In this document: in pieces, positions 1-16,691 of the stretch
How positions within the stretch are numbered: position 1 is the first letter of the stretch
Layout of the letters: each line of letters begins with the position of its first letter
IMG/VR virus record: IMGVR_UViG_3300007074_000118
Span: 1 to 22,811 of that record
Reading direction: 5' to 3' (one strand)
From: a virus
Length of the DNA: 22,811 nucleotides
Program-made: the position numbers and the translations under genes
The notes under the pieces: generated by a model
Seen by the model: only the letters and a program-made list of their open reading frames with translations
Database searches by the model: none
Told to the model about the DNA's origin: nothing

Positions 1-726
1 CTTGAAACTATTTTGGGCGTCTACGAAGGTACATCACTTGCTCGTCAGGAGCTCTATGGAGAGATGCTTGACAATATGGAAGGAGCGATGTGGAATGAAG
101 AATTGGTTGAGGCAGCTAGACACACTAATTACCCTGCGTCTACTCCGTTACGTGTTATCGGCGTCGACCCTTCAGTTGCTGAGAATCCCCGCGACGAGTG
201 CGGTATTGTTGTCTGCGCATCGTCTGCAGAAGGAGACCTCTATAAGCGCCATGCTTGGGTTCTTGAAGACGCTTCAATTCATGGTTCCCCAGACACCTGG
301 GCCCGTAAAGTTGTGGAAATGGCTCGCAAATGGGGTTGTCCCGTTGTTGCCGAAGTTAATCAAGGTGGCGCACTCGTACGAAACGCAATTAACTCTATTG
401 ACCCCAGCGTCAAAGTCCTCGAGGTCCACTCAAAGTACGGAAAGCAGTTAAGAGCAGAGCCAATTCTTCTTGCATACGAGCAAGGACGAGTTCACCACGT
501 TAACTACCTCCCAGAACTAGAATCTCAGATGTACTCTTGGATCCCAGGAGAGGGTAAATCCCCTGATCGGGTAGATGCAATGGTTCACGCCATGACCGCG
601 CTCCTAATTAAGCCCCCTCCGGGCTTTTCTGGTGGTAAATTACGTGCAAAAAGCCTCGCGGATCGCAAAATGGGCGTCAGCAGGCCAAATACTGGCAACG
701 TTGGCCGCGTTTTTAAGGTCAGGTAA
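1..726 (+). CDS. Terminase large subunit, C-terminal part (5' truncated)
   Basis: This is the nuclease half of the DNA-packaging motor, which cuts concatemeric phage DNA and drives it through the portal. The frame is open from the first base, so the gene begins upstream of the window and the ATPase domain is not seen. Counting from the first codon, an RNase H-fold nuclease pattern is visible: a first acidic residue in IGVDPS (Asp at codon 56), a second in VVAEVNQGG (Glu at codon 118) and a third in SPDRVDAMVHAM (Asp at codon 192). These three match the usual Asp/Glu/Asp metal-binding set of TerL nucleases. The tail after the third motif is basic, with a Pro-rich stretch. Its position two small genes before the portal supports the call. 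An apparent start codon at base 13 is only an internal Leu codon. Confidence 0.9.
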   Translation, partial: LETILGVYEGTSLARQELYGEMLDNMEGAMWNEELVEAARHTNYPASTPLRVIGVDPSVAENPRDECGIVVCASSAEGDLYKRHAWVLEDASIHGSPDTWARKVVEMARKWGCPVVAEVNQGGALVRNAINSIDPSVKVLEVHSKYGKQLRAEPILLAYEQGRVHHVNYLPELESQMYSWIPGEGKSPDRVDAMVHAMTALLIKPPPGFSGGKLRAKSLADRKMGVSRPNTGNVGRVFKVR

Positions 727-1089: not shown

Positions 1090-1380
1090 ATGGAACTTAC
1101 CGCACTAAATTTTGTAATTGTTGCCCTTGCGGCCTTTCGGGCAACGCATATGATTACCACTGATGTCATTGCAGAAGGTTTTCGAAATAAAATCTGGTCG
1201 AAGTTCCCGCCGAGCACTAAACTTGGATACTTAATCACATGTAACTGGTGTACGGGTTTCTGGATGTCAGGAATCTTTGTATTTGGAGCAATTATTTTAC
1301 CCCAAATCACAATTGTGGTATCATTAGTCTTGGCTATCTCCGCCTTGATTGGACTTATCTCCGCTTGGACCGAGCGCTAA
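1090..1380 (+). CDS. DUF1360-like small membrane protein
   Basis: This 96-residue protein has an N-terminal hydrophobic segment (about residues 5-22) and one or two further hydrophobic segments (about residues 52-92). Between them lies a cytosol-like loop containing TTDVIAEGFR and the motif CNWCTGFW. The order (R-x-T...TTD-x-I...R) followed by a C-x-W-C-x-G-F-W motif is the signature of the DUF1360 family, found in bacilli, actinobacteria and many phages next to terminase or portal genes. The biochemical role of the family is not known to me. The paired Cys at the membrane edge could bind metal or be redox active (inference). The ribosome binding site is weak, and the gene probably relies on coupling to its neighbour. 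Confidence 0.7.
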   Translation: MELTALNFVIVALAAFRATHMITTDVIAEGFRNKIWSKFPPSTKLGYLITCNWCTGFWMSGIFVFGAIILPQITIVVSLVLAISALIGLISAWTER

Positions 1381-1398: not shown

Positions 1399-3144
1399 TT
1401 GGGTATTTTTAAGAAAGAACCAGCAGGAACACGGAACGAAAGCCCGAAGATACGTGCGGCCTCTCCAAGGAACACTACACGCGTTGCGCCCGGAGTTTCC
1501 GTAGACTCTTTTGGAATTGTTTACGCTGAGCCACAAGTTTTTAACGCCCCACGTGCAATGACCGCTGCCGCTGCTCAGGTAAAACTAGACGACAAGACCG
1601 AAGCTCAATATTTTAAAGCTCGCAGAGACTCCTCAGCCTCTTCGTGGCAATCAGAAGCCTGGGAGTACTACGATGCAATCGGTGAAATCAAATATGCATT
1701 CAACCTAGTTGCGTCCGTTGTTTCAAGAATTCGTCTTTACCCCGCTGCTGTCAGCAATCCAAGCGAAACACCTTCACCGATTGATTTTGTAGAGAGTGTA
1801 GACCCGCGTTTAGCTGCTGCAGCAACTCGCGTGCTCGACCGCCTAAGCTCTGCCTACGGTGGACAGCCTGGACTTCTAAAGGACGCCGCTCTAAACTTGC
1901 AAGTTACTGGAGAATGCTATCTGGTTCAAATTCCGGAACGAAAAGGCTCCGGCCTTCCGGAGACATGGGACATTCGTTCCACAGACGAACTTCAGGTTGA
2001 CTCTAGAGGGAACTACATAATTAACCCCCGTCGCGATGTTGGTGGTGGTGGCGCTTCTGTGATGGCTCAGGGCAATAATGACACAATTCAACTACCTACA
2101 TCTGCATACGTAGGGAGAATATGGCGAGCTCACCCTCGTTACACGCAGGATTCCGACTCTTCACTACGCAGTCTATTAGACCTTTGCGCAGAATTGCTTT
2201 TGTTGAACAGGACTTTCCGTGCGACTGCACGTTCACGCCTAAACGCTGGCGCTCTCTACTTGCCAGACGGCCTTTCGGTCGCTGCATCACCTGACCCCGA
2301 CTACCCATATGACGAAGATGGAGATTTCAACGAGCAGTTTAACCCAGAAGAGGCCGCAGACGACTTCGAAGATCAACTAATCGATGCAATGACCACCCCG
2401 ATTAAGGACGAAGACTCCGCGTCTGCTGTCGTTCCTTTGATCATCCGTGGCCCAGCAGAGCTTGGCGACAAGATCCATCAGTTTAAGTTCGAACGTTCGT
2501 TCGACCCAGCACTAGCTGAGCGCTCCGATCGTGTACTAGAGCGCATCATGCAGGGCCTAGACGTCCCCAAAGACATCGTGACGGGACTTGCCAACGTTAA
2601 ATACTCTAACGCTCTACAAATCGATGAGAGCCTATATAAGGCTCACATAGAGCCTCTGATGCTACTAATCGTTGACGCACTAACTGTTATGTACCTGCGT
2701 CCATACCTAATTGCCAATGGATATTCCGAAGCAGAAGTTAAAAATGTCTGCATTTGGTACGACCCTAGTCTTGTAGCGACCAGGAATGACCGCGCTACAG
2801 ATGCAGACTCTGGATTCGAAAAGATGGCGATATCTTACGACACATGGCGTCGTGCTCACGGCTTCTCTGAGTCCGATGCGCCAGACCCTAAGGAACTTGC
2901 ACTTCGCCTAGTAATACAAAAAGGCCAAGTAACACCCGAGCTTACAGAGGCAATGCTTCAAGCTGTTGCTCCTGAACTTATGGCAGGTATTCGAAACAAG
3001 GCCATGGAAGAAAGCGGAGCCGAGATTCCTCCAGAGATTGACCGGCTTCTCACTGGCGTGCCAGCTGAAGACGCAGGAGCTGCAGAGGCTCCTACCGAAG
3101 ATACAACAGAAGAAGTCCCACCACTAGCAGAACCAGAGGCTTAA
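1399..3144 (+). CDS. Portal protein
   Basis: This 581-residue product is of usual size for a siphovirus portal, the dodecameric ring at the unique vertex through which DNA enters and leaves. The start is TTG at 1399 with GGGAG at 1388-1392 about six bases upstream; no ATG with a better site exists nearby. Residues about 70-120 (SWQSEAWEYYDAIGEIKYAFNL and the following helix) match the typical portal entry helix. Residues about 385-440, beginning GLDVPKDIVTG and containing NALQIDESLYKAHIEPL, are the conserved stem/clip-like segment of this family. The first 60 residues are basic and disordered, and the last 45 are Pro/Glu/Ala-rich and acidic. It sits after terminase and before the Dps-like gene, two bases from the next start. 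Confidence 0.88.
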   Translation: MGIFKKEPAGTRNESPKIRAASPRNTTRVAPGVSVDSFGIVYAEPQVFNAPRAMTAAAAQVKLDDKTEAQYFKARRDSSASSWQSEAWEYYDAIGEIKYAFNLVASVVSRIRLYPAAVSNPSETPSPIDFVESVDPRLAAAATRVLDRLSSAYGGQPGLLKDAALNLQVTGECYLVQIPERKGSGLPETWDIRSTDELQVDSRGNYIINPRRDVGGGGASVMAQGNNDTIQLPTSAYVGRIWRAHPRYTQDSDSSLRSLLDLCAELLLLNRTFRATARSRLNAGALYLPDGLSVAASPDPDYPYDEDGDFNEQFNPEEAADDFEDQLIDAMTTPIKDEDSASAVVPLIIRGPAELGDKIHQFKFERSFDPALAERSDRVLERIMQGLDVPKDIVTGLANVKYSNALQIDESLYKAHIEPLMLLIVDALTVMYLRPYLIANGYSEAEVKNVCIWYDPSLVATRNDRATDADSGFEKMAISYDTWRRAHGFSESDAPDPKELALRLVIQKGQVTPELTEAMLQAVAPELMAGIRNKAMEESGAEIPPEIDRLLTGVPAEDAGAAEAPTEDTTEEVPPLAEPEA

Positions 3145-3145
3145 T

Positions 3146-3604
3146 ATGCATATCGACCAAAAAACGGAATTAGTATCAAAGTTAGCGCTTCTGCTAGCTG
3201 ATACTGTGACTGCCAAGTTTATTTTTCATGGCTACCACTGGAACGTCTTAGGCCCAGACTTTGGTGAGTATCACAAGTTCTTCAAAACTCTTTATAAGGA
3301 TGTGGACAGTTCGATCGACCCGCTGGGCGAGAATATCCTTAAGGCTGGATTCCCTGCTCCTTACTTTTTGACAGATTATGCAGAGATGTCCCTCATCAAA
3401 GAAGAGCGTCTAGACGGATCTTCTCCTACATTCATGCTTCAGTCGGCTAAAAGAGTAAATGACCAGATAATGCACTCGCTGTTTGGAGCATTTGAAGAAG
3501 CAGAAAAATGCAATGAGCAAGGATTGCTGGATTTCCTTGCAGCACGTATTGACATGCACAAGATGTGGAACTGGCAAATCAACGCATTCCTAGGAGTCCG
3601 CTAA
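3146..3604 (+). CDS. Dps/ferritin-like protein (mini-ferritin)
   Basis: The product has 152 residues, the normal length of a Dps subunit. Dps proteins form 12-subunit shells that oxidise Fe(II) with peroxide, store iron and in some cases bind DNA. The hallmark HWNVLGPDF is at residues 31-39. The ferroxidase set is complete: His31, His43, Asp58 and Glu62, with the spacing and even the numbering I recall for bacterial mini-ferritins. The remaining sequence fits the four-helix bundle (helices near residues 5-32, 36-65, 92-120 and 124-148). There is no long Lys-rich tail for DNA binding, only a short N-terminus with two Lys. AGAGG at 3135-3139 precedes the ATG by six bases. It is embedded directly between the portal and head genes, suggesting a virion or late-infection role (inference). 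Confidence 0.87.
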   Translation: MHIDQKTELVSKLALLLADTVTAKFIFHGYHWNVLGPDFGEYHKFFKTLYKDVDSSIDPLGENILKAGFPAPYFLTDYAEMSLIKEERLDGSSPTFMLQSAKRVNDQIMHSLFGAFEEAEKCNEQGLLDFLAARIDMHKMWNWQINAFLGVR

Positions 3605-4345
3605 ATGTCCGAGTATATAAACAAAGTAGTGAACGCTTCAGGCGAGTACGCAGCGCCGGTAGATAAGATAGAAGAAGAAGAAACAGAAGAGAAAAAAGAA
3701 GCTCCCGAAGGTTATCACTACATGCCAGACGGCGAGCTAATGAAGGATTCAGCTCACGAAGCCGCAGCTTTAGAGAAAGAATCTGATGATCCTTGCTGGA
3801 AGGGCTACGTCCAAGTAGGCATGAAAAAGAAGAACGGCAAAAAAGTACCAAATTGCGTCCCTTCTGCGGCATCCATAGATGAGATAGTTGCAAGTGTTAA
3901 TAGTGAGTTTGGGCACTCCAGGCGAGTTCGCGAAGAAGATGCCTATCAAGTGGCTAGAAAAGCCTGCGACAAATATAGCTACCTCGGAGACACCGAAGAA
4001 CTTGAGTTAGCGATTCTGTGGGAAGTATTCACATACGTAGAGTATGCAACCGAAGGCGTTTCTGAGGATCTTGAAGATTTATCAGAATATTCTATTCTTC
4101 TACCAGCCGGACATCCGGGAAGAGAATCTTCAATTGCGGACTCCCTCGAGTGGGTCTATGGTGCCCCTGACTTGGATGACTTTGCCAAAGAAGCACTTCT
4201 TTCTGCTTTTGATATAGGCTCCGGCGGCATAGAGGTATTGCATGCGACCACTAGGCTAGAGGTTTTAATGGCTAGTGGAGGTCTTTCCGAAGTCACCGTC
4301 TCTCATTTAGAAGCTTTAAAAAAGAAGCATACTAAAGACAGCTAG
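3605..4345 (+). CDS. Acidic head-region protein with CWKGY/VPNCVP motif
   Basis: This 246-residue protein begins directly after the Dps-like stop, with AGGAG at 3592-3596 at good spacing. The N-terminus is a charged Glu/Lys segment (residues 20-35). It is followed by GYHYMPDGELMKD (residues 37-48) and then a compact motif at residues 62-87 with Cys64-Trp65-Lys-Gly-Tyr, a Lys-rich centre and VPNCVP ending near Cys84. Both short motifs recur in phage structural proteins of several groups. I know no proven role; they look like small modules or tags. The rest (residues 90-240) is acidic and helical and contains no recognised catalytic pattern. Its place among head genes suggests an internal or scaffold-associated protein, which is inference only. 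Confidence 0.55.
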   Translation: MSEYINKVVNASGEYAAPVDKIEEEETEEKKEAPEGYHYMPDGELMKDSAHEAAALEKESDDPCWKGYVQVGMKKKNGKKVPNCVPSAASIDEIVASVNSEFGHSRRVREEDAYQVARKACDKYSYLGDTEELELAILWEVFTYVEYATEGVSEDLEDLSEYSILLPAGHPGRESSIADSLEWVYGAPDLDDFAKEALLSAFDIGSGGIEVLHATTRLEVLMASGGLSEVTVSHLEALKKKHTKDS

Positions 4346-4399: not shown

Positions 4400-7186
4400 A
4401 TGCCTAATCTCTTCGACGCCATAATCGCAGTTGGTGGCAACTCTTCTGCAGCAAAGAGTGCAAGAGCTAGGCTTCAGCCCCGTGATAAAAACGGCCGCTG
4501 GGTACTAACTGGTGCAGGCATGTTTGCAAGTGTATCCCTACCTAACGGTAAAACCATTAAGGTTACTGGTAAGGCTATCGGCGGTACTGCAGTTAACAAG
4601 GGTGAGAAGAATAATATCCGCATGCTAGTCGGAGAAGGCTTCGCTAGCTCAGGAATCCCAGAGAGCACAGTACTTGAAGTAGCCTCCAAAAACGGTGAGC
4701 TAGAATCCAAGATTCAGCTAGATCGTGATTTCTTGAAGAGCAAGGGTATTGACCCAGATCTCAAGCATACTCTTCCTGCGTCAATAGCTGATCAGCCACA
4801 AAAACTAGAGGACATGAATGCTCAGCCGGGCGATGAGCTAGATATTGAACTAGCCACTAACGGACTAACCGACGAAGAGGACAAGGACTTCCGCGCAATA
4901 CGTGAGAAAGAGCCTCTAGCAAAACTTCCACCAGCACTTGCAGAGCAAGCTGTTGAAGGCGAAGACGTTAACAAACTTGTTGAAGACGGACCTGAGGGTG
5001 AGGCTATTGTTGATGCATACACCCCCTCTTCGGCCGAAGAACCAAGCTCCACTAAAGCCGCAGACGATGCAGTTGCAAATATCATGGATGAAGTCAGCCT
5101 ACATGGCGATACTGAAGTAAAATTAGACAACTTAGTAGAGTCCCTTAGCCCTGAAAGCAGCGTAAAACCGACAACTCCCATGAACTTAAATGTCGGAGAT
5201 GTAGTTCGCTCGAGGGCAGGTAGAGATTCTGTTGTCCTGGATATAAGATTGGACCCCAGTAGCGGCGGTAGATCATTCATGAGACTACAGAATGAGGATG
5301 GCATCGTAGCAGAGTTTCCTCTAGATCTTACTAGGCAACTTAACGTTGTGCAGGGCAGAAAGGCTACTATCGCTCGGCCTACTGAGCCTACTGAGCCTAC
5401 TGAGCCTACTGGGCCTACTATCGCTCGGCCTACTGGGCCTACTATCGCTCGGCCTACTGAGCCTACTGAGCCTACTGAGCCTACTGAGCCTACTGAGCCT
5501 ACTGAGCCTACTGAGCCTACTGAGCCAGCCAAGCCCTCCAAGCCAGCCAAGCCAGCCAAGCCTACCCCCGAGGGTGTAGACACTCCTGAGGGAGAGGCAG
5601 TCACACAGACTAGCGATGGATCACCTCCTGTGAACTTCCCTCCACCCGGCAGAATGGACGACGGTAGCAACTTTAACTTGCCAGTACTGTCCAAAGAAGA
5701 GCTAGAGAGGGAAAGAGCCAGAAAGCTCACCCCTGTGATGGGCCCTGACGGCACGCCTGTCGGCTACGTAGATGAGCACAATAGGATTCTTTCCGCCGAT
5801 GACCCGTTTGCAATGATGGATGCTTTAGCTAAAATATACCCGGACGCTAAGTTTACTGAAGAGGGTGCTCTAGTTCTTCACAGGCAAGAAGACAAAGACG
5901 GCAAAATATTTGAACTACGGGCAAACAACTCTGGTAAAAAGGCTATTGTGTACACTATGCGCTGGACTGACCCAGAAACTGGAGAATTCAAAGAGTACCA
6001 GCACAAAGATGATCGTCACTCCATTGCGCCACTTCTGAGCAAAGCTAACGGCCCTCAGGGGCTACTTGATAGACTGATGGGCAGGGTCGATAATGATGGT
6101 TTTGATTGGGCAAACGTAAAGTTTGGTAGAGGCGGCAAGGGGAATGCATGGGGCCCGAATGACAGCTTATCTAGTCGTCTTAAGTGGCTTATGTCTGGAA
6201 CAGGCGACCGAAAAAAGATGGAAGAAATCGGTGATAACGCCGTACGACTTGCCGATGGTAGGAATGTAACCTACCACGCAGGTACGAAGATTGTTAAAAA
6301 CAGCGAGCTCCCTAGCCTATGGAATACCTATGATGAGTTCATGAGCTCAGGAACGTCAAGACGCGACAGAGATGTAGCTCTTAAAGAAGATATGTATGAC
6401 ATTCTGTATTCTATATTTGGAAGTACACCTCTCGGTGAGAAGGCGCATGCAGACGCAAGAAAGGCTATTAGAGCCGAGTTCAGACGAAGAAACCCTAATG
6501 CGAGCCAGAGAAGTACCCAGAGCTTCGACTACTATGTATCCGCCGCATCAGAGCGTATGCGGGGGATCTACAGGAACCCGGACTCTAATACTAGATCAAT
6601 TAGGTACGCCTCAAAGGATATGACGAAGTCTATCGAGAAGGGTATGACCGTTGAGTATACAAACAACGTAGGCGAAACATCTATCCTTAAAGTTTCTGGT
6701 TTAGTGCAAAACGTTAACGCCACTCCCGGAGACAAAGCATCTTACGATTATGGGGACTACGTATTGGTAGTAGATGCGAACGGCAATACGAGGGAGATAA
6801 ACGCGCTAAAACTCAGGCAGACGAGAGATCAAGACACTCCTCTAACAGATTACACTGCTAACCTACAGGGCCAAGCACTAGCAGAAGCCAGGAGAGACCC
6901 CGATTCAGAGCCGATCCCTGCACCTAGGCAGCGAGCGAAGCCTGTTGGTACTGATACTGTTATCTCTGCTCAGCCCTCTCCTCCTATGCTTATAGATGAT
7001 GTTGTTCAAGGAGATATGCTGCACAATAAAGAAGGAAGGCCTCTTGGTATCGTAAAGACGGCTCCTCGACCTGTTACAAGCAGAGATGGCTCTCCAGCAC
7101 TGGCATTCTTGTATACAGGAGCAGACGGAGTCGAAGGTTCGGCGGTCTACAAGCTTGGTACGGAGGTAACACCAAAAAAAGCCTAG
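4400..7186 (+). CDS. Large multidomain head-region protein, zero-frame product
   Basis: The zero frame encodes 928 residues. ATG at 4400 is preceded by AAAGGA at 4386-4391 with eight bases of spacing. Residues 26-33 hold a QPRDKNGR tag, a motif that recurs twice in the capsid polyprotein. Residues about 263-316 read as a small beta-barrel (LNVGDVVRSR..., KOW/SH3-like guess). Residues about 322-390 are a low-complexity Pro-Thr-Glu then Pro-Ala-Lys linker. Residues 410-600 begin with a conserved-looking GPDGTPVGYVDEHNR segment, and residues about 650-745 are basic and helical. I recognise no enzyme in this half. The frame ends with AAA AAA GCC TAG, where a -1 slip leads into the downstream frame. 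It is therefore probably both a product in itself and the N-terminal part of a 1629-residue fusion. Confidence 0.75.
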   Translation: MPNLFDAIIAVGGNSSAAKSARARLQPRDKNGRWVLTGAGMFASVSLPNGKTIKVTGKAIGGTAVNKGEKNNIRMLVGEGFASSGIPESTVLEVASKNGELESKIQLDRDFLKSKGIDPDLKHTLPASIADQPQKLEDMNAQPGDELDIELATNGLTDEEDKDFRAIREKEPLAKLPPALAEQAVEGEDVNKLVEDGPEGEAIVDAYTPSSAEEPSSTKAADDAVANIMDEVSLHGDTEVKLDNLVESLSPESSVKPTTPMNLNVGDVVRSRAGRDSVVLDIRLDPSSGGRSFMRLQNEDGIVAEFPLDLTRQLNVVQGRKATIARPTEPTEPTEPTGPTIARPTGPTIARPTEPTEPTEPTEPTEPTEPTEPTEPAKPSKPAKPAKPTPEGVDTPEGEAVTQTSDGSPPVNFPPPGRMDDGSNFNLPVLSKEELERERARKLTPVMGPDGTPVGYVDEHNRILSADDPFAMMDALAKIYPDAKFTEEGALVLHRQEDKDGKIFELRANNSGKKAIVYTMRWTDPETGEFKEYQHKDDRHSIAPLLSKANGPQGLLDRLMGRVDNDGFDWANVKFGRGGKGNAWGPNDSLSSRLKWLMSGTGDRKKMEEIGDNAVRLADGRNVTYHAGTKIVKNSELPSLWNTYDEFMSSGTSRRDRDVALKEDMYDILYSIFGSTPLGEKAHADARKAIRAEFRRRNPNASQRSTQSFDYYVSAASERMRGIYRNPDSNTRSIRYASKDMTKSIEKGMTVEYTNNVGETSILKVSGLVQNVNATPGDKASYDYGDYVLVVDANGNTREINALKLRQTRDQDTPLTDYTANLQGQALAEARRDPDSEPIPAPRQRAKPVGTDTVISAQPSPPMLIDDVVQGDMLHNKEGRPLGIVKTAPRPVTSRDGSPALAFLYTGADGVEGSAVYKLGTEVTPKKA
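5363..5560 (+). repeat. In-frame minisatellite encoding Pro-Thr-Glu / Pro-Ala-Lys linker
   Basis: A 9-base unit CCTACTGAG (Pro-Thr-Glu) occurs three times, then eight times without interruption at 5453-5524. Three copies of a 15-base unit ending CTACTATCGCTCGG (encoding Ile-Ala-Arg junctions) are interspersed at 5363-5377, 5414-5428 and 5438-5452. Four degenerate units encoding Pro-Ala/Ser-Lys follow at 5525-5560. The unit length is a multiple of three, so copy-number change keeps the frame. The encoded stretch is an extended charged Pro-rich linker between two folded parts of the protein. The reverse and alternative frames are also open here because of the repeat, and these are not genes. 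Confidence 0.93.
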
Positions 7187-7204: not shown

Positions 7205-9288
7205 CTCTACTCAGAGAAGTACCTAGCGCTCCTGACTCTGATGAGGGCTACGATTTACCGGCTGACTTCTGGGACGACGTCTCGGAGGAGATTCAATCTC
7301 CTGCCAGTGTGATCCCGGAGCTTCTTGACAGCAGCGATCTAGTAAAAGCCCTTCCCGAGATGAAAAATCTAGCCAACTACGGGGGTACTACACTAGAAGC
7401 GAACTTACAGTTAGCTGTAGCCAGAGCAAATATTTTTAGAAACAAAATCCGTGAAGTAAAGTCACTTATAGGTAATAACGCCGATGTTCTTGGCCCTAAC
7501 TGGCAGCTAGAAACTGCTAGTGCAAGGGGTGTGTTTGGCGCTACTGTAAATACTCAAGACTTAGCTCTCCTGATTACCAGGCCTTCAGTCGATGAATTTA
7601 AACGTTCGGCGTCCTATCGTCCTTTAGGCGGGAGCGCTGAAGACTTTGCCTACTTCCTAGAATTTCTAAGAGCTGACAGGCCGAACGACGGCGTGGCTCA
7701 GACAGTAGACAGGCTCTTTGCATCCGGAGTTAAGTTCAAACCAGTCATAGGCGCGTCTAGTCCAGTTGGACTAGTACAAATTCCATACGAAATAAAGAGA
7801 GACAGTGAGGGCAAGCCTATCAGCGCTGCCCCTTCTGTAGACACTAAGGAATACAAAGAAGCTTTAACTACGCTCTCTGAGTTTTCACTTAACAACACTT
7901 CTGCGATGAACTTTGACCCTCGCTCAGTTATCCTAAGGATCAGTGGGACCCAGGCCAACTTCGAGGAGGCGTACTCTGACATCTCTCCTAATACTAGGGA
8001 CCTAACCAGGGCTCAGGGAGTAAACTTCGTTACTAGGGCAGATGGGTCAGAGATTGGGGTGTCGGAGATATCTTCTCCCCTGCTCCGTAGCTCAAAATCC
8101 GTAATACTAATAAACCATGAATTCGCTTCTAGCTTAGAAGGAGAATTTGGAGGAGATACCTCTATAACAGAGACTGTATTACACGAGTACGGCCACAGTC
8201 TGCACAGAAGTATCGACCCACTATGGGGCGATGAGAGGGGCGGTGAGCTAGATGCTCGCTATTCCGATGTTCGCGATCAAGAAGTGTCTAGCTACGGACA
8301 AAATAACGATCAGGAACATTTTGCAGAAGCGTACGCTAAGTACCTGTATACGGGTGAAGCAACAGACGAATACAAGAAATTTCTTAAAGATACTCTCGGC
8401 ATTTATAAGTTTGATCTAAACGCTGCATTCCCGAAATACCTTAGAGGAAATAATTTTAGGGACGATTTTATCTCGTACTTACAAAACAATACCGATCTCA
8501 AGGGGTACTCCATCGATTGGTCAAGTTCCAGTAGCGTCGGATCTGTTCCAGACTCTGTTTTAATGGACAGAGCTCAGAGAGCAGTGACTAGGGGGGAAGG
8601 TCTGTCTAGAGAAACGGTAAGCCTTAGCGGTAGTCTAATAGCACCTAATGGCTCGTCTGCGGGAACGATTTCTAGGACTTTGACTAGAGGATCAGATGGC
8701 ACCTTAAGCGTATACCACGACCTGTTCAAACTAAAGTCTTCTCATCAAGGCAAGGGGTTAGGCCAAAATGTTATCGAGGGCAGCTTTGCCTATTATAGGA
8801 GCATTGGCGTAGATAAAGTATCAGTCACCGCAGCATTAGATAACGGGCCGTACATGTGGGCCCTTATGGATTTCGATTTCTCGTCCGAAGAACAGCGCAG
8901 TAAGCGTCATATTTACACTCAGAACACTGCCGCTGCCTTGAAGGCATATGAAGGCAATCAGGATGCCTATTCGAATATGACTCCAACTGAAATAGCAGCA
9001 GACATAATGCCACAAATAAGCGTAGTACCAACAAATAGCGGCGTTAATTATGGCCCTGGGAGCATCAGACGATTGATAGAATCACTTAGAGAAAACGGCT
9101 GGGTAGTAGATAATAACTTCATAAACGAGTTAACCTCTATTGCTGAATTGCCTGTTTCGGATGTGACACCTAAAATGATTGCTACTATAGGAAGAAACAA
9201 TAAGCGTACTCAGACTAAGAATTCTTCTTCTCTCGGTAGGTTTATTATGATGACCGTAGGTTCTTGGAGAGGTGAAAGGAGGCCATAA
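7180..9288 (+). CDS. Frameshift extension: zinc metallopeptidase and GNAT-like domains
   Basis: The interval given is the -1 frame after the slip, about 702 residues fused to the preceding 927. The only independent start is GTG at 7309, whose nearest SD-like GGAGGAG ends 18 bases upstream, too far to be convincing. Using numbering from that GTG, HEYGHSLH is at residues 292-299 and QEHFAEAYAKYL at 335-346. This gives His292, Glu293, His296 and a downstream Glu (336 or 340), the layout of gluzincin-type metallopeptidases with a second Glu-rich helix, as in ATLF-like phage domains. Near residue 479, HQGKGLGQNVIEG resembles the GNAT acetyl-CoA motif, and ALDNGPYMWALMDFDF follows as in GNAT tails. 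Such combinations occur in polyvalent phage proteins. It ends in a TAATG overlap with the next gene. Confidence 0.75.
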   Translation, partial: SLGPDQGLALLREVPSAPDSDEGYDLPADFWDDVSEEIQSPASVIPELLDSSDLVKALPEMKNLANYGGTTLEANLQLAVARANIFRNKIREVKSLIGNNADVLGPNWQLETASARGVFGATVNTQDLALLITRPSVDEFKRSASYRPLGGSAEDFAYFLEFLRADRPNDGVAQTVDRLFASGVKFKPVIGASSPVGLVQIPYEIKRDSEGKPISAAPSVDTKEYKEALTTLSEFSLNNTSAMNFDPRSVILRISGTQANFEEAYSDISPNTRDLTRAQGVNFVTRADGSEIGVSEISSPLLRSSKSVILINHEFASSLEGEFGGDTSITETVLHEYGHSLHRSIDPLWGDERGGELDARYSDVRDQEVSSYGQNNDQEHFAEAYAKYLYTGEATDEYKKFLKDTLGIYKFDLNAAFPKYLRGNNFRDDFISYLQNNTDLKGYSIDWSSSSSVGSVPDSVLMDRAQRAVTRGEGLSRETVSLSGSLIAPNGSSAGTISRTLTRGSDGTLSVYHDLFKLKSSHQGKGLGQNVIEGSFAYYRSIGVDKVSVTAALDNGPYMWALMDFDFSSEEQRSKRHIYTQNTAAALKAYEGNQDAYSNMTPTEIAADIMPQISVVPTNSGVNYGPGSIRRLIESLRENGWVVDNNFINELTSIAELPVSDVTPKMIATIGRNNKRTQTKNSSSLGRFIMMTVGSWRGERRP

Positions 9289-9688: not shown

Positions 9689-10090
9689 ATGGCCGAAGAG
9701 CAAGAGTACGATATCTCTCCTGAACCTACTATTTATTTTTACGTAAATAAAGAGACAGAGTCGGTAGAGTATATTTCCATGTATACCATTTTTGGTATTA
9801 CCGTTAGACCTGAGGGAGAAAAGTGGAGGTCTGGGTCAAGAGATGACCTAGAAAAGTACTATTCCTCTAGCTACGAGATTTGGTCATACGAATGGGATAA
9901 CTCAGACGACACTCCTGGCAGCGGCGCTCCCCTTGATCCAGATGATGAAGACGGATGGGAGATTGACCTCATCCAAGATTGGGCAAAGGGGTCAACACTC
10001 AGTAGGGCTGACATAGAAAAGGTCTGCAGAATGGTGAGCTCGGGAGACTATGTAACTAAAGAAGAAGCCGAAAGCTTCCCTGGAGAATGA
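9689..10090 (+). CDS. Small acidic protein, function unknown
   Basis: This 133-residue acidic protein starts at ATG 9689 with AGGA at 9677-9680. The 62-base gap before it contains a TAAAAT box at 9639-9644 without a good -35, and a small CTAGA/TCTAG hairpin near 9650-9664. The N-terminal half alternates aromatic and beta-prone residues (TIYFYVNKETESVEYISMYTI). The middle has an Asp-rich linker (SDDTPGSGAPLDPDDEDGW), and the C-terminal third is helical (SRADIEKVCRMVSSGDYVTKEEAE). No family is recognised. The stop overlaps the first codon of the next gene as ATGA. Two consecutive small acidic genes between the multidomain gene and the capsid protease may be accessory or partner proteins (inference). 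Confidence 0.58.
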   Translation: MAEEQEYDISPEPTIYFYVNKETESVEYISMYTIFGITVRPEGEKWRSGSRDDLEKYYSSSYEIWSYEWDNSDDTPGSGAPLDPDDEDGWEIDLIQDWAKGSTLSRADIEKVCRMVSSGDYVTKEEAESFPGE

Positions 10091-13000
10091 CCTTGTCTAA
10101 AAATCGCATGTATACCATCCCTGGCGGCGTCCAGAATGAAGCTAAAAAAGCTCTAAACTGGCGCAAGGAAACCAAGAGGGGTGGCACCCCCGTAGGGATT
10201 AGCAGTGCTCGCACGCTTGCAAAAGGCGGCCAAATTGGCCTCGAGAAGATTCGCCACATCGCTAAGTATTTCCCTCGTCACGAAGTTGACAAAAAAGCAA
10301 AAGGCTATGAGCGCGGAGAAGATGGCTTCCCGTCTAACGGTCGTATTGCTTGGGCACTTTGGGGTGGGGACGCCGGACAGAGATGGGCTTCTGCAATTGT
10401 AGAGCGTGAAAACAAGAAAGCAATTGCTGCGGGCGGCTATGGCTTTGTGGACGGTCCAACAGGTTTTGAGAACACGCCACATTATGAGCCAGATCTAAAG
10501 GCTTTCAAACAAGCCCACGAATTAGATCTTTTTCTCGGGCCAGAGTTTATGGCTCGTGTTCGTCTAGACAACTCCGCCATTGACCGTCTGTATAAAATTG
10601 ACGTTGACGGCATGGTATCCGTCTGGGACGATTGCGGCTGGGACGACATGGGCCACGTAGATGGAGATGTCTACTCATACGACAGAGCGCTAGATGTTGA
10701 TATCGAAATCTCCGCGTTTGACCATGTACTTATTGATCCTTCAGCCGCAGTTATTATCTCTGCGTTTCTACAAGCTCGCCCTAACCAGCCAGTTACGCTG
10801 AACGAGATAGACCCAGAAGAGACCAGGCTTGTAGCAGATGGTCTTATGGAAGAAGATTTTGGAATGATCGACAGGGTTATGACTGCCGCTGGCGAGTCCC
10901 CTACCGACACCGATGGTGACTACACCCCCGAAGAGCGCTCAAATCTTGCAAAAACCCAGCCTAGAGATGCAAGTGGACTATTCGTAAAAGTGGGCTCCCG
11001 TACTATCGTTGCCGGAGATAAAGAACGTGGCTCTGGAAAGATTACCAGTATTGACTACAAGGCTGGAAAAGTTAACGTTCTACTTGACAGCGGTAAAAGC
11101 ATAGCTGTAGATCCTAAATTTACTCAAGGCGAAGAGAGTTACGACGGACCGTCAATGGTCCCTACCAGTACGCCTACTATTGACTTCAAAGGTATTATAG
11201 GGGAGCCTAGAACTCCTCGAAATTCTAAAATTGCACAATTGCCTGGAACGCTTCCTCAGATGACTGATAGCGACTTAGGGTTGCTTATTCGTGACTTCCC
11301 AGCTTATGTAGCCAAGATGAGAGCGTCCTATAAGACATATGATGACAGTCCTAAGGGCTTAAAGGCGTATGACAAGAAACTTGTAAAAGAACGCCACGGA
11401 ATTAATGCCGCGGCAGCTAAAGAAGACGACTCTATCAATGAGCCTTCTGATTCCGATGTCCCTGCTAAGTACCTAGCTATCGTCTCCCCTGAGGATAAAG
11501 GTGCAGTTATGGATGTGGTTGCCATTGTTCCGGCGTCCAAGACGTCCACCGAGCCATCCATATATGAGCGTCGAGAAGGTAAGTGGCAGAAGAACGATCA
11601 AATACTGCTCGACCTAAAGTCTGCAACACCTCCTCCAGTTGTTGAACTAGACGACTCAGAAGTTCTAAATGATGTTCTCAAGCAGGCAGATGAAGCTACT
11701 GGCGTTCAGGCTTCTGCGTACGAGTTCTCCATTTTCTGGGAAAGGGTAGTAGAGCCGTTGCTTGCAGCTGGCGGTGCTGACCGTAACCGTGGCAATGCAG
11801 ATGCACTTCGTCGCTACTGGACTAAGGGCAAGGGCGCAGCGAAGATCCGTTGGAACACTCCCGGCGACTGGACTCGATGTGTTCGCCAACTCTCTAAATA
11901 CATGGGCCCCCGCGCGAAGGGCTACTGCCAGCTTCGCCACAAGGAAGTAACTGGTGTCTACACTGGAAGCGAGAAAAATGTTGGAAAGAAGAAAGGCTTA
12001 AAAGCTTCTACTTCGCTATTTGCAACTGAGCAAGAACTTGATTCAGCAGTCTTTGAAAAGTCCCGTCTATCAGCGATAGCAGCAGACGCCCGTGAAAAAG
12101 TTGGACTACTTGCCGGTGCTTCAGCGACTAAGCCTGGAGCTACTTTCTTTGTCCCAATGATAGTTCCAGAGGGAGCAGAGTCTGGTGACGGACGTAAGTT
12201 TGAGAAGGGGGCTATCAGCGTTAGAGATCTCCCTGTGCCTCTTTTGTGGCAGATTAAGACTGGGTCCGGGCATGACGGCTCAGTTGTTGTTGGTCGAATT
12301 GATTACATTGAGAGAATTGAAGGCGGCATGGGAAATGCTACCGGCGTATTTGACTCAGGACCATATGGTCGTGAAGCAGAACGCTTAGTTCGTTACGGTT
12401 TCTTGCGCGGTGTTTCGGTTGATTTGGACCAGTTTGAAGCAAGGGAAGATAAAAAGTCAAAGGTAGAAAACTCAGAAGACAGCGAAATTATGAGTAAGGA
12501 TAAACTTACTATAAATAAAGCAAGAATAATGGCTGCTACAATTGTAGCTAAGCCCGCATTCCAGGAATGCACTATTTCATTGCAAAACCAAGGGGATGAA
12601 GAGGACTATATGCCCGAGAAAGACGGCGTCTACGAAGAGTGCATTGATGGTCTTTGCGACCTCGAGCCAATTATGGCTTCCGGGTACCTAGAATCTGAGA
12701 TCCCAATGGCCCCGCCTACTTCTTGGTTCAAGGACCAGAAGCTGGATAGGCCTACTCCCTTAACAGTAGACAAAGACGGCCGTATCTATGGTCACATTGC
12801 CGCATGGCACGTTAGCCACATTGGACTACCACGTTCAACAAAGCCTCCTCGCTCTCGTAGTAAGTACGCATACTTCAACACTGGAGTAGTGCGGACTGAA
12901 GATGGTACTGACGCGACAGTCGGTCAACTTACTCTTGCTGGTGGGCACGCTCCACTAAATGCTAGTGCTGCCGATGCAGCAAAGCACTATGATGATACTG

Positions 13001-14418
13001 CTTCTGCTATTGCAGACGTTCACGCTGGCGAAGATCAGTACGGTATTTGGGTAGCTGGGTCTTTGCGTCCAACCGCAGACGAGATGCAGGTTCGTGCACT
13101 CCGTGCTTCTGCTCCATCTGGAGACTGGCGTCCAATTAATGGTTCCTTAGAACTGGTTGCTGTTTGCCAAGTTAACGTTCCTGGATTCCCCACTGCTCGT
13201 GCAATGATTGCATCGGGTAAGATTTTGGCACTAGTTGCTGCTGGAGCTAGTCACATGGCTGCCCTCAAGAGTCAAGCCGTTCAAGCTCTCGCCTACAGAG
13301 CAGGCACCTTAGGTCAGCTCGCCGCTACTGCTCCAGACCTAAAGATCCGTGTCAGGGAAGCAAAGAAGTCTCTTCGCGCAGCAAACCTTCAAGCACTCAC
13401 TGCTGGTGCAGCTAACATGCGTGAGAGCGCCCTGACCGCGGCCGCTGTCGCAGAGCTAGCCAAAATCTCGGACGACGAGAGAATGGAACTCGCTAAGAAG
13501 GGCCACGCAATGGAAGACGGCGCGTACCCGATCCGTGATGAGTCTGACTTGCGCAATGCTATCCAAGCGTATGGACGAGCAAAGGCTTCTGAGAGACGAG
13601 CTGTCCGTAGACACATCACCAAACGTGCACGAGCACTTAAGAAGTATGACCTTATCCCTCAACAGTGGAAAAACGTAAGCTCCATGGAGGCGGCCGAAAA
13701 AGTAGCGTCCATGCGTGCAAGCATTACAGCCTTTTCCTACTCGGAATTTGCTGAGGGGGATGAAGACGAAATCTCTGAAACTGAGCTAAAGAAGCTAAAA
13801 GACGCAAAGTCTGAAGCCGACAAGCAAACCGAAGAAGAGATTGAAGCAGCTAAGGACGTCAAGTCTGGTAAAATAGACCCCAACGGTCTAGACGAGGATG
13901 GCAAGCCTAAATACATCTCCGGTGTAAACCAGCCACGCGACGCAAAGGGTAAGTACCGAACGGTTCTGGCTCGCCTAAAACAGAACTTAGGTGTTGCAGG
14001 TCTGGCAAAAGCATTGAAAAAAGCTGAAGATGCCGAGAACCTAGACTTTGCTGGTAACTATCAGGCTTCTGCGGACGCAAGCGGTGAGCTGCTTGGTATG
14101 ATCGACCGTATTGACTCTAAGGCGCTTAACCCGGAGGCTTTAGAAAATGTTCGTGCAACTGCCGGAGAGTTGGGGACAGTTATTGCTAACTTACCTCTAC
14201 CCTTTGGCCAGGATGCAGAAAAATTAAGATTTAGCGATCTACCGTCTGGGCTCAAGGACCTCATCGGTCAGATGATTACTCGTGTCGAGGCAAAAATCGG
14301 TAAAAAGGATGCGGATATTGCTACGCAAGATCTAAGATCCTACATGTCGGGTGCAGATTTGTACTCTCAGGGTGAAGTTCAATCTGAGATGAGCACGCTG
14401 CTCCGACTCCTTACCTAA
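10087..14418 (+). CDS. Capsid maturation protease polyprotein (S78-like) with multiple head modules
   Basis: A 1443-codon gene. ATG 10087 overlaps the upstream stop, but TTG at 10093 has GGAG (10082-10085) at seven bases and may be the real start. Modules in order: residues about 20-105 carry GGTPVG...RHEVDKK...PSNGRIAWALWGGD, a recurrent phage N-terminal module; a QPRD tag is at 291; residues about 575-640 have RRYWTKGKGAAKIRW and KGYC...RH. Residues about 685-800 are the prohead protease, with His729 in GHDGSVVVG and Ser777 in RGVSVDL as probable catalytic residues. Residues about 880-1065 hold GRIYGHIAAWH, GGHAPL, KHYDD and SGDWRPI motifs seen in actinophage maturation proteins. Residues about 1143-1195 contain KRARALKKYDLIP, and a second QPRD tag is at 1282. 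It presumably cleaves itself and the capsid protein. Individual module functions beyond the protease are unknown. Confidence 0.8.
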   Translation: MTLSKNRMYTIPGGVQNEAKKALNWRKETKRGGTPVGISSARTLAKGGQIGLEKIRHIAKYFPRHEVDKKAKGYERGEDGFPSNGRIAWALWGGDAGQRWASAIVERENKKAIAAGGYGFVDGPTGFENTPHYEPDLKAFKQAHELDLFLGPEFMARVRLDNSAIDRLYKIDVDGMVSVWDDCGWDDMGHVDGDVYSYDRALDVDIEISAFDHVLIDPSAAVIISAFLQARPNQPVTLNEIDPEETRLVADGLMEEDFGMIDRVMTAAGESPTDTDGDYTPEERSNLAKTQPRDASGLFVKVGSRTIVAGDKERGSGKITSIDYKAGKVNVLLDSGKSIAVDPKFTQGEESYDGPSMVPTSTPTIDFKGIIGEPRTPRNSKIAQLPGTLPQMTDSDLGLLIRDFPAYVAKMRASYKTYDDSPKGLKAYDKKLVKERHGINAAAAKEDDSINEPSDSDVPAKYLAIVSPEDKGAVMDVVAIVPASKTSTEPSIYERREGKWQKNDQILLDLKSATPPPVVELDDSEVLNDVLKQADEATGVQASAYEFSIFWERVVEPLLAAGGADRNRGNADALRRYWTKGKGAAKIRWNTPGDWTRCVRQLSKYMGPRAKGYCQLRHKEVTGVYTGSEKNVGKKKGLKASTSLFATEQELDSAVFEKSRLSAIAADAREKVGLLAGASATKPGATFFVPMIVPEGAESGDGRKFEKGAISVRDLPVPLLWQIKTGSGHDGSVVVGRIDYIERIEGGMGNATGVFDSGPYGREAERLVRYGFLRGVSVDLDQFEAREDKKSKVENSEDSEIMSKDKLTINKARIMAATIVAKPAFQECTISLQNQGDEEDYMPEKDGVYEECIDGLCDLEPIMASGYLESEIPMAPPTSWFKDQKLDRPTPLTVDKDGRIYGHIAAWHVSHIGLPRSTKPPRSRSKYAYFNTGVVRTEDGTDATVGQLTLAGGHAPLNASAADAAKHYDDTASAIADVHAGEDQYGIWVAGSLRPTADEMQVRALRASAPSGDWRPINGSLELVAVCQVNVPGFPTARAMIASGKILALVAAGASHMAALKSQAVQALAYRAGTLGQLAATAPDLKIRVREAKKSLRAANLQALTAGAANMRESALTAAAVAELAKISDDERMELAKKGHAMEDGAYPIRDESDLRNAIQAYGRAKASERRAVRRHITKRARALKKYDLIPQQWKNVSSMEAAEKVASMRASITAFSYSEFAEGDEDEISETELKKLKDAKSEADKQTEEEIEAAKDVKSGKIDPNGLDEDGKPKYISGVNQPRDAKGKYRTVLARLKQNLGVAGLAKALKKAEDAENLDFAGNYQASADASGELLGMIDRIDSKALNPEALENVRATAGELGTVIANLPLPFGQDAEKLRFSDLPSGLKDLIGQMITRVEAKIGKKDADIATQDLRSYMSGADLYSQGEVQSEMSTLLRLLT

Positions 14419-14524
14419 AAAGTAGGGTAAAATTATCCCTAGGTGAAGCGCCTCGCGTTTATTCGATGAGTCCCTAAACCTTGACTGTAATCAAGGATGC
14501 TAGACATCCAACAATAACTGGCCT

Positions 14525-14537
14525 AGGAGGTACAGTG
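14525..14537 (+). promoter_or_regulatory. Strong ribosome binding site setting the capsid gene start at GTG
   Basis: AGGAGG at 14525-14530 is followed after four bases by GTG at 14535, in frame with the capsid protein. The farther TTG at 14481 has no SD-like sequence in front of it. For a gene that must be highly translated, the GTG is the better supported start and shortens the product from 736 to 718 residues. The alternative would mean the AGGAGG only happens to encode Leu-Gly-Gly. Confidence 0.65.
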
Positions 14538-16691
14538 TACGACCAAATTAAAACTCAGTTAGATGCAATATCTGAGCTAGGCGACGATCAAGTCGCGGAG
14601 CTTCAGGCAGACATCATCTCACAGTTTGAAATGGTTGAGGGTGAAGACCCGACTCCTGATTCAGTTGATGCTATGACGTTACTAGCTGACTCCCTAGATA
14701 TGGTGCGTGGCGAATTATCTCGCCGTGAAGCGCAGACTGCAGAACTTGCAGCTAGAGCGGCTGACGCTGCTTCCCGTGTTAAGGATGAAGTAGAAGACGT
14801 TGGAGAGGAAATGGCTATGGCCGAAGAAGACGCACCTATGGACGAGACCCCAGAAGAGGAAACTCCTGCTGTGGAAGAGACCAAAGAGGTAGAGGCAGAA
14901 GAAATGCCAACTGAAGAAGAAGAAGAGATGGAAGAAGAGGAAATGTCGATTAAGGCATCCGCTTCTGACGAGCTCGCTTCTGAAGAAGTTGCTGTTGACG
15001 CTGTTGTCGAGGTTACCGAAGCTGCAGAGCTTTCTGCAGAAGAAGTAACCGAAGAGGTCGAAACTCCAGCTGCCGAAGCTGAACTCGCTGCCGAAGAGGT
15101 AGTAGAAGTCGCTGACGCGGAGGAGACTGTAGCTGAGGCTCCAGTCGAGACCGAGGCTGCTACTGAAGAAATCACCGAAGTTGGAACCGAAGTTGCTGCA
15201 GAGCTTTCTGCAGTTGACGAGGCTTCAACCGAAGAGGTTACTGAAGTACTCGAGGACGCCACAATTCAAGCATCAACCGATCAGGTAGACGGTTCTGAAC
15301 TATCAACCACAACTGAAGAAGCCACTGAGCTCTCTTCAGACGAGAATATTGAAACATCAACAGCTCTTGTAGAAGAGCAGAAGGAGCAAGCAGTGACTGC
15401 TGCAGCTGAACAGCCTTTCGAGGCCCCAGCCGACCGTCAACCTGTAGTTCAGGTAACTGAAGCCCCAGTAGCAATTACTGCTGGCGCTGACATCCCTGGA
15501 TACACCGCGGGAAGCAACATTAAAGACATGTCTGAGGTTTCTCAGGCCATGGAGAAGAGACTTCATACTCTTCGCCGTGTAAACGGTGGCGATGGAGAGC
15601 AGCACATTGTTGCGTCTTTCTCGACACAGTACCCAGAGTCACGCTTCCTAGGAAGCGACGCTGAGTCAAACGCAGCTAAGATCAGCGGTGTTGTAGGTCA
15701 AGAAGCACTTGTTGCTTCTGGTGGACACGCTGCTCCAGTTGAGACCAAGTATGACATCTTCGGTATCGGCTCAACCACAGCACGTCCAGTTCGCGATGCA
15801 TTGCCTCGCTTCCAGGCCGACCGTGGCGGAGTTCGCTTCGTAACTGCCCCTAGTTTCGCTGGTGGTGACTATGCCGATGCTGTTGGTGTTTGGACTGCTT
15901 CTAACGATGCAGCTGAAAGCCCAAGCCCGTCCGCAAAAACTAGCCTAACCGTTTCTGCTGCTGCAGAAAACACGGCTGTAACTGACGCTGTAACACTACA
16001 GCTACAGTTCGGTAACCTCATGACACGTGCGTACCCAGAACTAATTGCTCGACACAATGAGCTAGGTCTAGTACAGCACGCACGCGAGGCAGAGCAGAGC
16101 CTAATTGCTAAGATCGAAGCAGCTTCAACTGCAGTTAGTTCTGGAACCCTTCTGGGCTTCGGTCGTGACTTCTTGGTAACAGTACGTAAGGCAGCTGTTG
16201 CTTACCGTTCACGTCACCGCATCTCGCAGGGAACAGTCCTAAAGGCTATTGTCCCTGAGTGGGTAATGGACGCCATGGCTTCTGACCTTGCTATTGCAAT
16301 GCCAGGCGATGGAACCCTAGGTGTCGGCCAGTCCGAGATCGCCGGGTACCTAGCCGGATCTAACGTTGACATGGTGACATCTCCTGATGCAACTCCATTC
16401 GGCTCACAGGGCGTTGCCGCTCTCCTAGAGTTCCCAGACACCTTCAAGTGGTACCTCTTCGCAGAGGGCACCTTCTTGTTCCTAGACGGTGGAACTCTAG
16501 ACCTAGGTATCATCCGTGACTCCTCACTAGTTGGAACCAACGATTACAAGATGTTCGTTGAAACCTTCGAGGGTATTGCCAAGGTTGGTATCGAGTCTCT
16601 AGTTATCACCCAGACTGTAAATGTCAACGGTGTAGCCGCTGCTCTACGCGACACCACTGGTGGCGCTGCTGCAGCTGCAATCGAGCTCTAA
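14535..16691 (+). CDS. Major capsid protein, HK97 fold, with long acidic N-terminal domain
   Basis: Starting at GTG 14535 the product has 718 residues, long for a major capsid protein. Residues 1-70 are helical (LDAISELGDDQVAELQADI). Residues about 70-280 are extremely Glu/Ala/Val-rich with repeated EEVTE-type steps. After a Pro-rich stretch, the capsid core starts near residue 316 (AGADIPGYTAGSNI). HK97-fold features follow: an E-loop-like region with paired Gly and Arg (PVRDALPRFQADRGG), a long spine-helix candidate (ELIARHNELGLVQHAREAEQSLIAKIEAA), and a beta-rich end (FEGIAKVGIESLVITQTVNV). The acidic N-terminal 315 residues probably act as a fused scaffold (delta domain) removed by the upstream protease; this is inference from gene order. 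Leucine codons in the core are mostly CTA. Confidence 0.85.
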   Translation: MYDQIKTQLDAISELGDDQVAELQADIISQFEMVEGEDPTPDSVDAMTLLADSLDMVRGELSRREAQTAELAARAADAASRVKDEVEDVGEEMAMAEEDAPMDETPEEETPAVEETKEVEAEEMPTEEEEEMEEEEMSIKASASDELASEEVAVDAVVEVTEAAELSAEEVTEEVETPAAEAELAAEEVVEVADAEETVAEAPVETEAATEEITEVGTEVAAELSAVDEASTEEVTEVLEDATIQASTDQVDGSELSTTTEEATELSSDENIETSTALVEEQKEQAVTAAAEQPFEAPADRQPVVQVTEAPVAITAGADIPGYTAGSNIKDMSEVSQAMEKRLHTLRRVNGGDGEQHIVASFSTQYPESRFLGSDAESNAAKISGVVGQEALVASGGHAAPVETKYDIFGIGSTTARPVRDALPRFQADRGGVRFVTAPSFAGGDYADAVGVWTASNDAAESPSPSAKTSLTVSAAAENTAVTDAVTLQLQFGNLMTRAYPELIARHNELGLVQHAREAEQSLIAKIEAASTAVSSGTLLGFGRDFLVTVRKAAVAYRSRHRISQGTVLKAIVPEWVMDAMASDLAIAMPGDGTLGVGQSEIAGYLAGSNVDMVTSPDATPFGSQGVAALLEFPDTFKWYLFAEGTFLFLDGGTLDLGIIRDSSLVGTNDYKMFVETFEGIAKVGIESLVITQTVNVNGVAAALRDTTGGAAAAAIEL

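Follow-up and report, generated by a model that had tools for sequence, protein, structure and literature searches.

A Dps-type miniferritin encoded directly behind the portal gene in actinophage-like contigs and fused to head-assembly proteins in related phages

Results

A Dps-type gene abuts the portal gene

The window, a 22.8-kb virus record analysed as a whole, carries terminase, portal and further head-region genes on one strand (Table 1), and among them an ORF that, judged by its sequence and its modelled fold, is a genuine, intact Dps-type miniferritin. The portal stop codon (TAA, 3142-3144) is separated from the Dps start codon by 1 nt and the Dps stop codon abuts the ATG of the next gene, in agreement with the original prediction, made from the sequence alone, that the gene has no gap to its neighbours. 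The same prediction credited the gene with a good ribosome-binding site of its own and with a place between portal and capsid genes; a candidate AGAGG site with a 6-nt spacer is present, but it is fair rather than strong and lies inside the portal end, and the gene does stand directly behind the portal gene, but the capsid gene is non-adjacent, ~11 kb downstream. The CCAGAGGC(T/C)TAA context of the putative site is seen again in most close relatives. GC3 of the Dps gene (0.48) falls inside the range of its neighbours (0.36-0.49).

Table 1. Position and assignment of the features discussed in the window
Feature	Position	Strand	Basis and remarks
Terminase large subunit, nuclease part	13-726	+	PF17289, phrog_38; gene truncated by window end
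Small DUF1360 protein, between terminase and portal	1090-1380	+	In all relatives covering the region
Portal protein, directly upstream of Dps	1399-3144	+	phrog_776, E 6e-104
Predicted ribosome-binding site AGAGG	3135-3139	+	6-nt spacer; from sequence only; within last portal codons
Dps-type miniferritin	3146-3604	+	152 aa, ATG start; PF00210, PHROG 3636, PDB match, AlphaFold model
Head-region protein, PCWxGY...VPNCVP motif, directly downstream of Dps	3605-4345	+	Function-unassigned PHROG matches
659-aa head-region protein, HEYGH metallopeptidase-type motif	7309-9288	+	Weak, below-cut-off Pfam match only
Large head-maturation-protease-like protein	10087-14418	+	phrog_18402 head maturation protease, E 6e-62
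Major head protein	14481-16691	+	phrog_777, E 3e-75

The Dps ORF matched Pfam PF00210 (Ferritin) at 42.1 bits (E 1e-10; cut-off 24.5 bits) and PHROG 3636, labelled 'DNA binding protein' (E 7e-18), and its top match in a PDB sequence search was 8ff9 (E 9e-19, about 29% identity), identified by its Foldseek title as the Pseudomonas aeruginosa Dps PA0962. An AlphaFold2 model built from 26 phage homologues (pLDDT 95, pTM 0.89) predicts a ferritin-like four-helix bundle (helices 2-33, 39-54 plus 57-66, 94-121 and 125-149) and, in the BC loop, a short additional helix (75-81). PA0962 was again the best match when this model was compared with the PDB by Foldseek (TM about 0.9), and Dps or Dps-like proteins were found throughout the matches listed. 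Thus, the predicted structure did not place the protein outside Dps. It resembles PA0962 in fold, length and the residues H31, H43, D58 and E62, and differs from it in being encoded next to a portal gene, in its variable position 47 and in the family-specific residues P72, G126, R134 and Q144.

The head operon also includes genes with no evident head role, such as those encoding the DUF1360 protein and the HExxH-type ORF, the latter with weak, function-unassigned PHROG matches near residues 440-530. In relatives, the proteins encoded at the position of the gene directly downstream of Dps contain a DUF5824 domain and are sometimes fused to Dps; this domain was not detected in the window's own protein. 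The Peptidase_S78 match of the large head-maturation-protease-like protein was weak and below the cut-off. QPRDxxGxW-type motifs (RARLQPRDKNGRWV, KTQPRDASGLFV, NQPRDAKGKYRTV) recur in this protein and in the product of ORF 4400-7186, as well as in the large head-region proteins of relatives. ORF 4400-7186 contains a PTEP-type repeat stretch (about 5350-5580, plus strand), and in the otherwise identical contig L002 it was only 97% matched and shorter at this repeat, so that the repeat number may vary.

The ferroxidase ligands are invariant and the protein is acidic

All four ferroxidase ligands are present in the window Dps, numbered exactly as in the original prediction, and none of the 122 distinct phage Dps domains, fused forms included, departs from H31, H43, D58 and E62 (in the first scans, the four ligands and Trp32 were retained in all 49 distinct homologues). 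Because one search motif of the Dps scans contains H31, the conservation of this residue was partly selected for; loci found through the portal are free of such bias. Position 47 is Lys in the window Dps and G, A, E, Q, S, K or R across the phage family. In many Dps proteins, though not in all of them, an Asp at this position is also conserved at the metal site, and since the best bacterial match, 8ff9, has Glu there in the sequence alignment, we did not treat Asp47 as defining Dps. P72, G126, R134 and Q144 are among the conserved residues specific to the phage family.

Among relatives, the dN/dS of Dps was mostly 0.03-0.09, roughly equal to that of the portal, with dS close to saturation in most pairs compared. 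The view that the gene is no decayed relic is thereby upheld, relatives being intact and under constraint about as strong as that on the portal. Individual pairs were discordant: L006 and L007 have near-identical portals (dS 0.016) and a Dps dS of 1.0, while L005 and L006 have near-identical Dps genes (dS 0.086) and a portal dS of 1.1, and so Dps alleles appear to have been swapped by recombination with their location unchanged. In contig L003, the portal, Dps and next gene are 99.8-100% identical to those of the window and the two genes before the portal only about 69%, which points to a recombination break just upstream of the portal.

The window Dps has a pI of 5.4 (median 4.8 over the 122 phage domains), and in its model a helix starts at residue 2 and a basic N- or C-terminal tail is absent. 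Protection through DNA binding is therefore unlikely, and both sequence and model make it look like a non-DNA-binding Dps, one that would probably form the usual Dps shell. Many Dps proteins are protective without binding DNA.

The portal-Dps arrangement is conserved in relatives

Fifteen of 15 close Dps homologues sit between the portal and the next head-region gene. A portal scan that was blind to Dps returned 74 decidable loci, and 6 undecidable ones at contig ends, and Dps stood directly behind the portal in 72 of the 74 and was absent from 2. As these relatives were found without using Dps, the arrangement is beyond chance, and the suggested survey of portal-Dps synteny thus revealed an order conserved across actinophage-like contigs. 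Its recurrence on many contigs from different samples also led us to reject a chimeric assembly. A Dps-alignment scan returned 80 loci with Dps behind the portal, re-used loci included.

In the two relatives without Dps (L063 and L064), the next module gene follows the portal immediately, and in L063 its product carries a DUF5824 domain; Dps is therefore a clean insertion or loss. When a more distant portal was used for scanning, Dps was found behind the portal in 53 of 69 decidable loci, fused to the downstream head-region protein in 31 of the 53, and was absent from the other 16. Dps-less relatives keep the remaining head-module genes, and the existence of 2 close and 16 of 69 more distant relatives of this kind indicates that Dps is not essential to the head. 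What follows the portal in Dps-less loci was assessed by a crude count of YRRG motifs, used for this purpose alone. In contig L438, the ORF behind the portal (about 5126-6649) is of this YRRG, DUF5824-like type and its N-terminus resembles helix A of Dps and may be what is left of a fused Dps domain that was deleted.

By portal, the closest named phages were the actinophages DSL-LC01 and Pumpernickel, and also Mimi, and in none of the three was a Dps found behind the portal. Of 25 related contigs, 19 carry WhiB genes, in support of actinobacteria as the hosts of this group.

Dps is not head-bound everywhere. Eight loci (L233-L237 and L239-L241) have the same Dps family without this portal upstream, so that the domain also occurs outside the portal module; in L240, the one case checked, it lies beside a replication-initiation gene. 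In the cultured phages checked, cyanophage S-SRM01, Streptomyces phage LukeCage, Aeromonas phage BUCT695 and Bacteroides phage BS162P1, the Dps gene is found among auxiliary, replication or unnamed genes.

Dps domains are fused to head-assembly proteins

In a viral fold library, the top matches to the window Dps model included Dps domains within long entries named 'Prohead protease'. Dps fusion proteins are present in IMG/VR DNA as uninterrupted open frames, and they are of three types: Dps joined to a DUF5824-type protein behind the portal (about 375-753 aa); a HAD-like domain followed by Dps and a Peptidase_S78 prohead protease (mostly about 640-720 aa); and, in one case (L191), an XkdF-type protease with Dps. 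The S78 fusions are located between the portal and major head protein genes, as in L214, where the order is TerL, portal (phrog_12), HAD:Dps:S78 fusion and major head protein (phrog_10). One of them scores 134 bits, above the curated cut-off of 59 for the HK97 proheadase family (TIGR01543). When the protease domain alone was used for scanning, an in-frame Dps was found in 24 of 35 relatives, and several of the Dps-less protease relatives have another domain between HAD and protease (e.g. L351). The HAD-phosphatase-like N-terminal domain was observed on prohead-protease proteins of L206 (3296-5335), L214 (3416-5359), L225 (3344-5338) and others. The model of one S78 fusion predicts a separate helical Dps bundle at ~215-365 between low-confidence linkers, at a mean pLDDT of only 63.

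A tree built by a quick method gave a minimum of 4 changes on starred branches for the DUF5824-fusion label, gains and losses not being distinguishable in this count. The XkdF fusion of L191 is nested in the S78-fusion clade of the quick tree, and this therefore looks like a change of protease around one Dps, not an unrelated capture.

HK97-type prohead proteases act inside proheads, and a Dps fused to one should therefore be carried there. In the window phage, Dps is encoded as a separate, unfused protein, and the case for its entry into the capsid accordingly comes from relatives that belong to other groups of phages.

The phage Dps genes form one clade

Bacterial genome contigs scanned with the motifs and alignment of the phage Dps family yielded no confirmed relative, and in a looser scan the nearest bacterial Dps was 31-39% identical to the phage Dps. 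With 28 bacterial Dps proteins, chosen by motif, as outgroup, the phage Dps formed one clade (starred value of 100, quick method). Comparison with host Dps had been proposed as a check for recent transfer, and within the genomes sampled it speaks against such an event.

Discussion

The fusion of Dps to head-assembly proteins, the maturation protease included, suggests from gene content that Dps is put to use by phages inside or at the assembling virion. For the window phage, we see an even chance that its Dps is an active ferroxidase made together with the procapsid and probably working in or at it, a location drawn from its relatives. Dps would be translated together with the late head genes and would enter the procapsid or dock onto it, unattached here and within a protease protein in other phages. 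Fe(II) would then be oxidised at the subunit interfaces of Dps, with peroxide or oxygen, and Fenton chemistry would be held off the genome and capsid proteins during DNA packaging and perhaps in the finished particle, such that the hydroxyl-radical load on the genome would be lowered at these stages. The notion of a capsid-internal protein, one of several functions first proposed for this gene, thus gains evidence from the fusions with both the DUF5824-type protein and prohead proteases; damping of host oxidative defence, another of these functions, gained no specific evidence. More tentatively, and with somewhat less than an even chance, this phage lineage may package a working Dps ferroxidase inside the head, supplied either by the free protein encoded next to the portal or by release from a prohead-protease polyprotein; gene arrangement makes a ferroxidase inside the virion plausible.

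The main rival to a procapsid role is a cytoplasmic stress protein of late infection, merely co-transcribed with the head operon and never part of the particle, which would keep the infected cell alive until lysis by storing iron and removing peroxide. We regard this as possible and somewhat doubtful: the same role has been proposed for other phage Dps and ferritin proteins (PMC8008677, PMC6669764, PMC6802176), the cultured-phage genes that we checked lie in auxiliary or replication regions and the ferroxidase ligands are intact, but neither the near-fixed place behind the portal nor the fusions to prohead proteases and to the DUF5824-type protein are explained by it. Position and fusions would also suit a structural or assembly component with the Dps shell as its framework, such as a scaffold, neck protein or portal plug, for which iron chemistry is no longer relevant. 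A purely structural use does not require four ligands that are invariant in 122 of 122 domains, however, and Dps-less relatives retain the rest of the module, and so we find such a part improbable.

Still less credible is direct binding and coating of the phage genome by a DNA-condensing Dps, which the name of the family and its 'DNA binding protein' label in PHROG would favour: the acidity of the protein and of the 122 domains, the helix beginning at residue 2 and the missing basic tail weaken the earlier suggestion of direct DNA protection, and protection by Dps commonly does without DNA binding. Recent capture of a host gene, still without a settled role, is the reading to which we give almost no credence. 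Dps genes are common in bacteria, but the motif scan confirmed no bacterial relative, the closest bacterial sequences are distant and fall outside the phage clade and many contigs have Dps at the same position; within the range of genomes sampled, recent capture is refuted.

We know of no Dps-carrying members of the HK97-family prohead proteases (TIGR01543, Peptidase_S78), which in related phages contain a Dps domain, whereas the window Dps is a separate gene. Fused Dps-protease proteins do already exist as automatic annotations. By analogy, encapsulins with ferritin-like cargo tie an iron-oxidising ferritin-like protein to an HK97-type shell; unlike in encapsulins, the shell system here is that of a phage head, with its portal, terminase and protease, and encapsulation is putative. 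Phage-encoded Dps-type proteins with a proposed role in oxidative stress have been described in Lactobacillus myoviruses and gut 'Gratiaviridae', and in the parts of these reports consulted the Lactobacillus myovirus gene lies near DNA-metabolism genes, unlike the portal-adjacent window Dps, and neither a place in the head module nor a protease fusion is described (PMC6669764, PMC8008677). Ferritin is likewise among the ROS-defence genes listed for freshwater phages, actinophages included, and the sections consulted mention no portal linkage or fusion, unlike the Dps group of the window (PMC6802176). Our search of the open-access literature found no description of a portal-adjacent, prohead-protease-fused or virion Dps. 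Thus, phage Dps and ferritin genes were already known, and what is new here, within the open-access literature, is a Dps that is portal-adjacent and protease-fused.

Dps in phages has so far been treated as an auxiliary gene that aids host tolerance of oxidation. Its place behind the portal and its repeated fusion to head-maturation proteins point to iron or redox chemistry in virion assembly, and three kinds of protein, the portal-adjacent Dps, Dps:DUF5824 and HAD:Dps:protease, are now supplied for testing. If the ferroxidase is indeed packaged, the virion would act as the viral equivalent of an encapsulin-ferritin compartment, bringing to the next host its own safeguard against iron and peroxide, and possibly iron itself. 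The finding thus bears on whether virions handle iron and on how ferritin-like cargo became associated with HK97-type shells.
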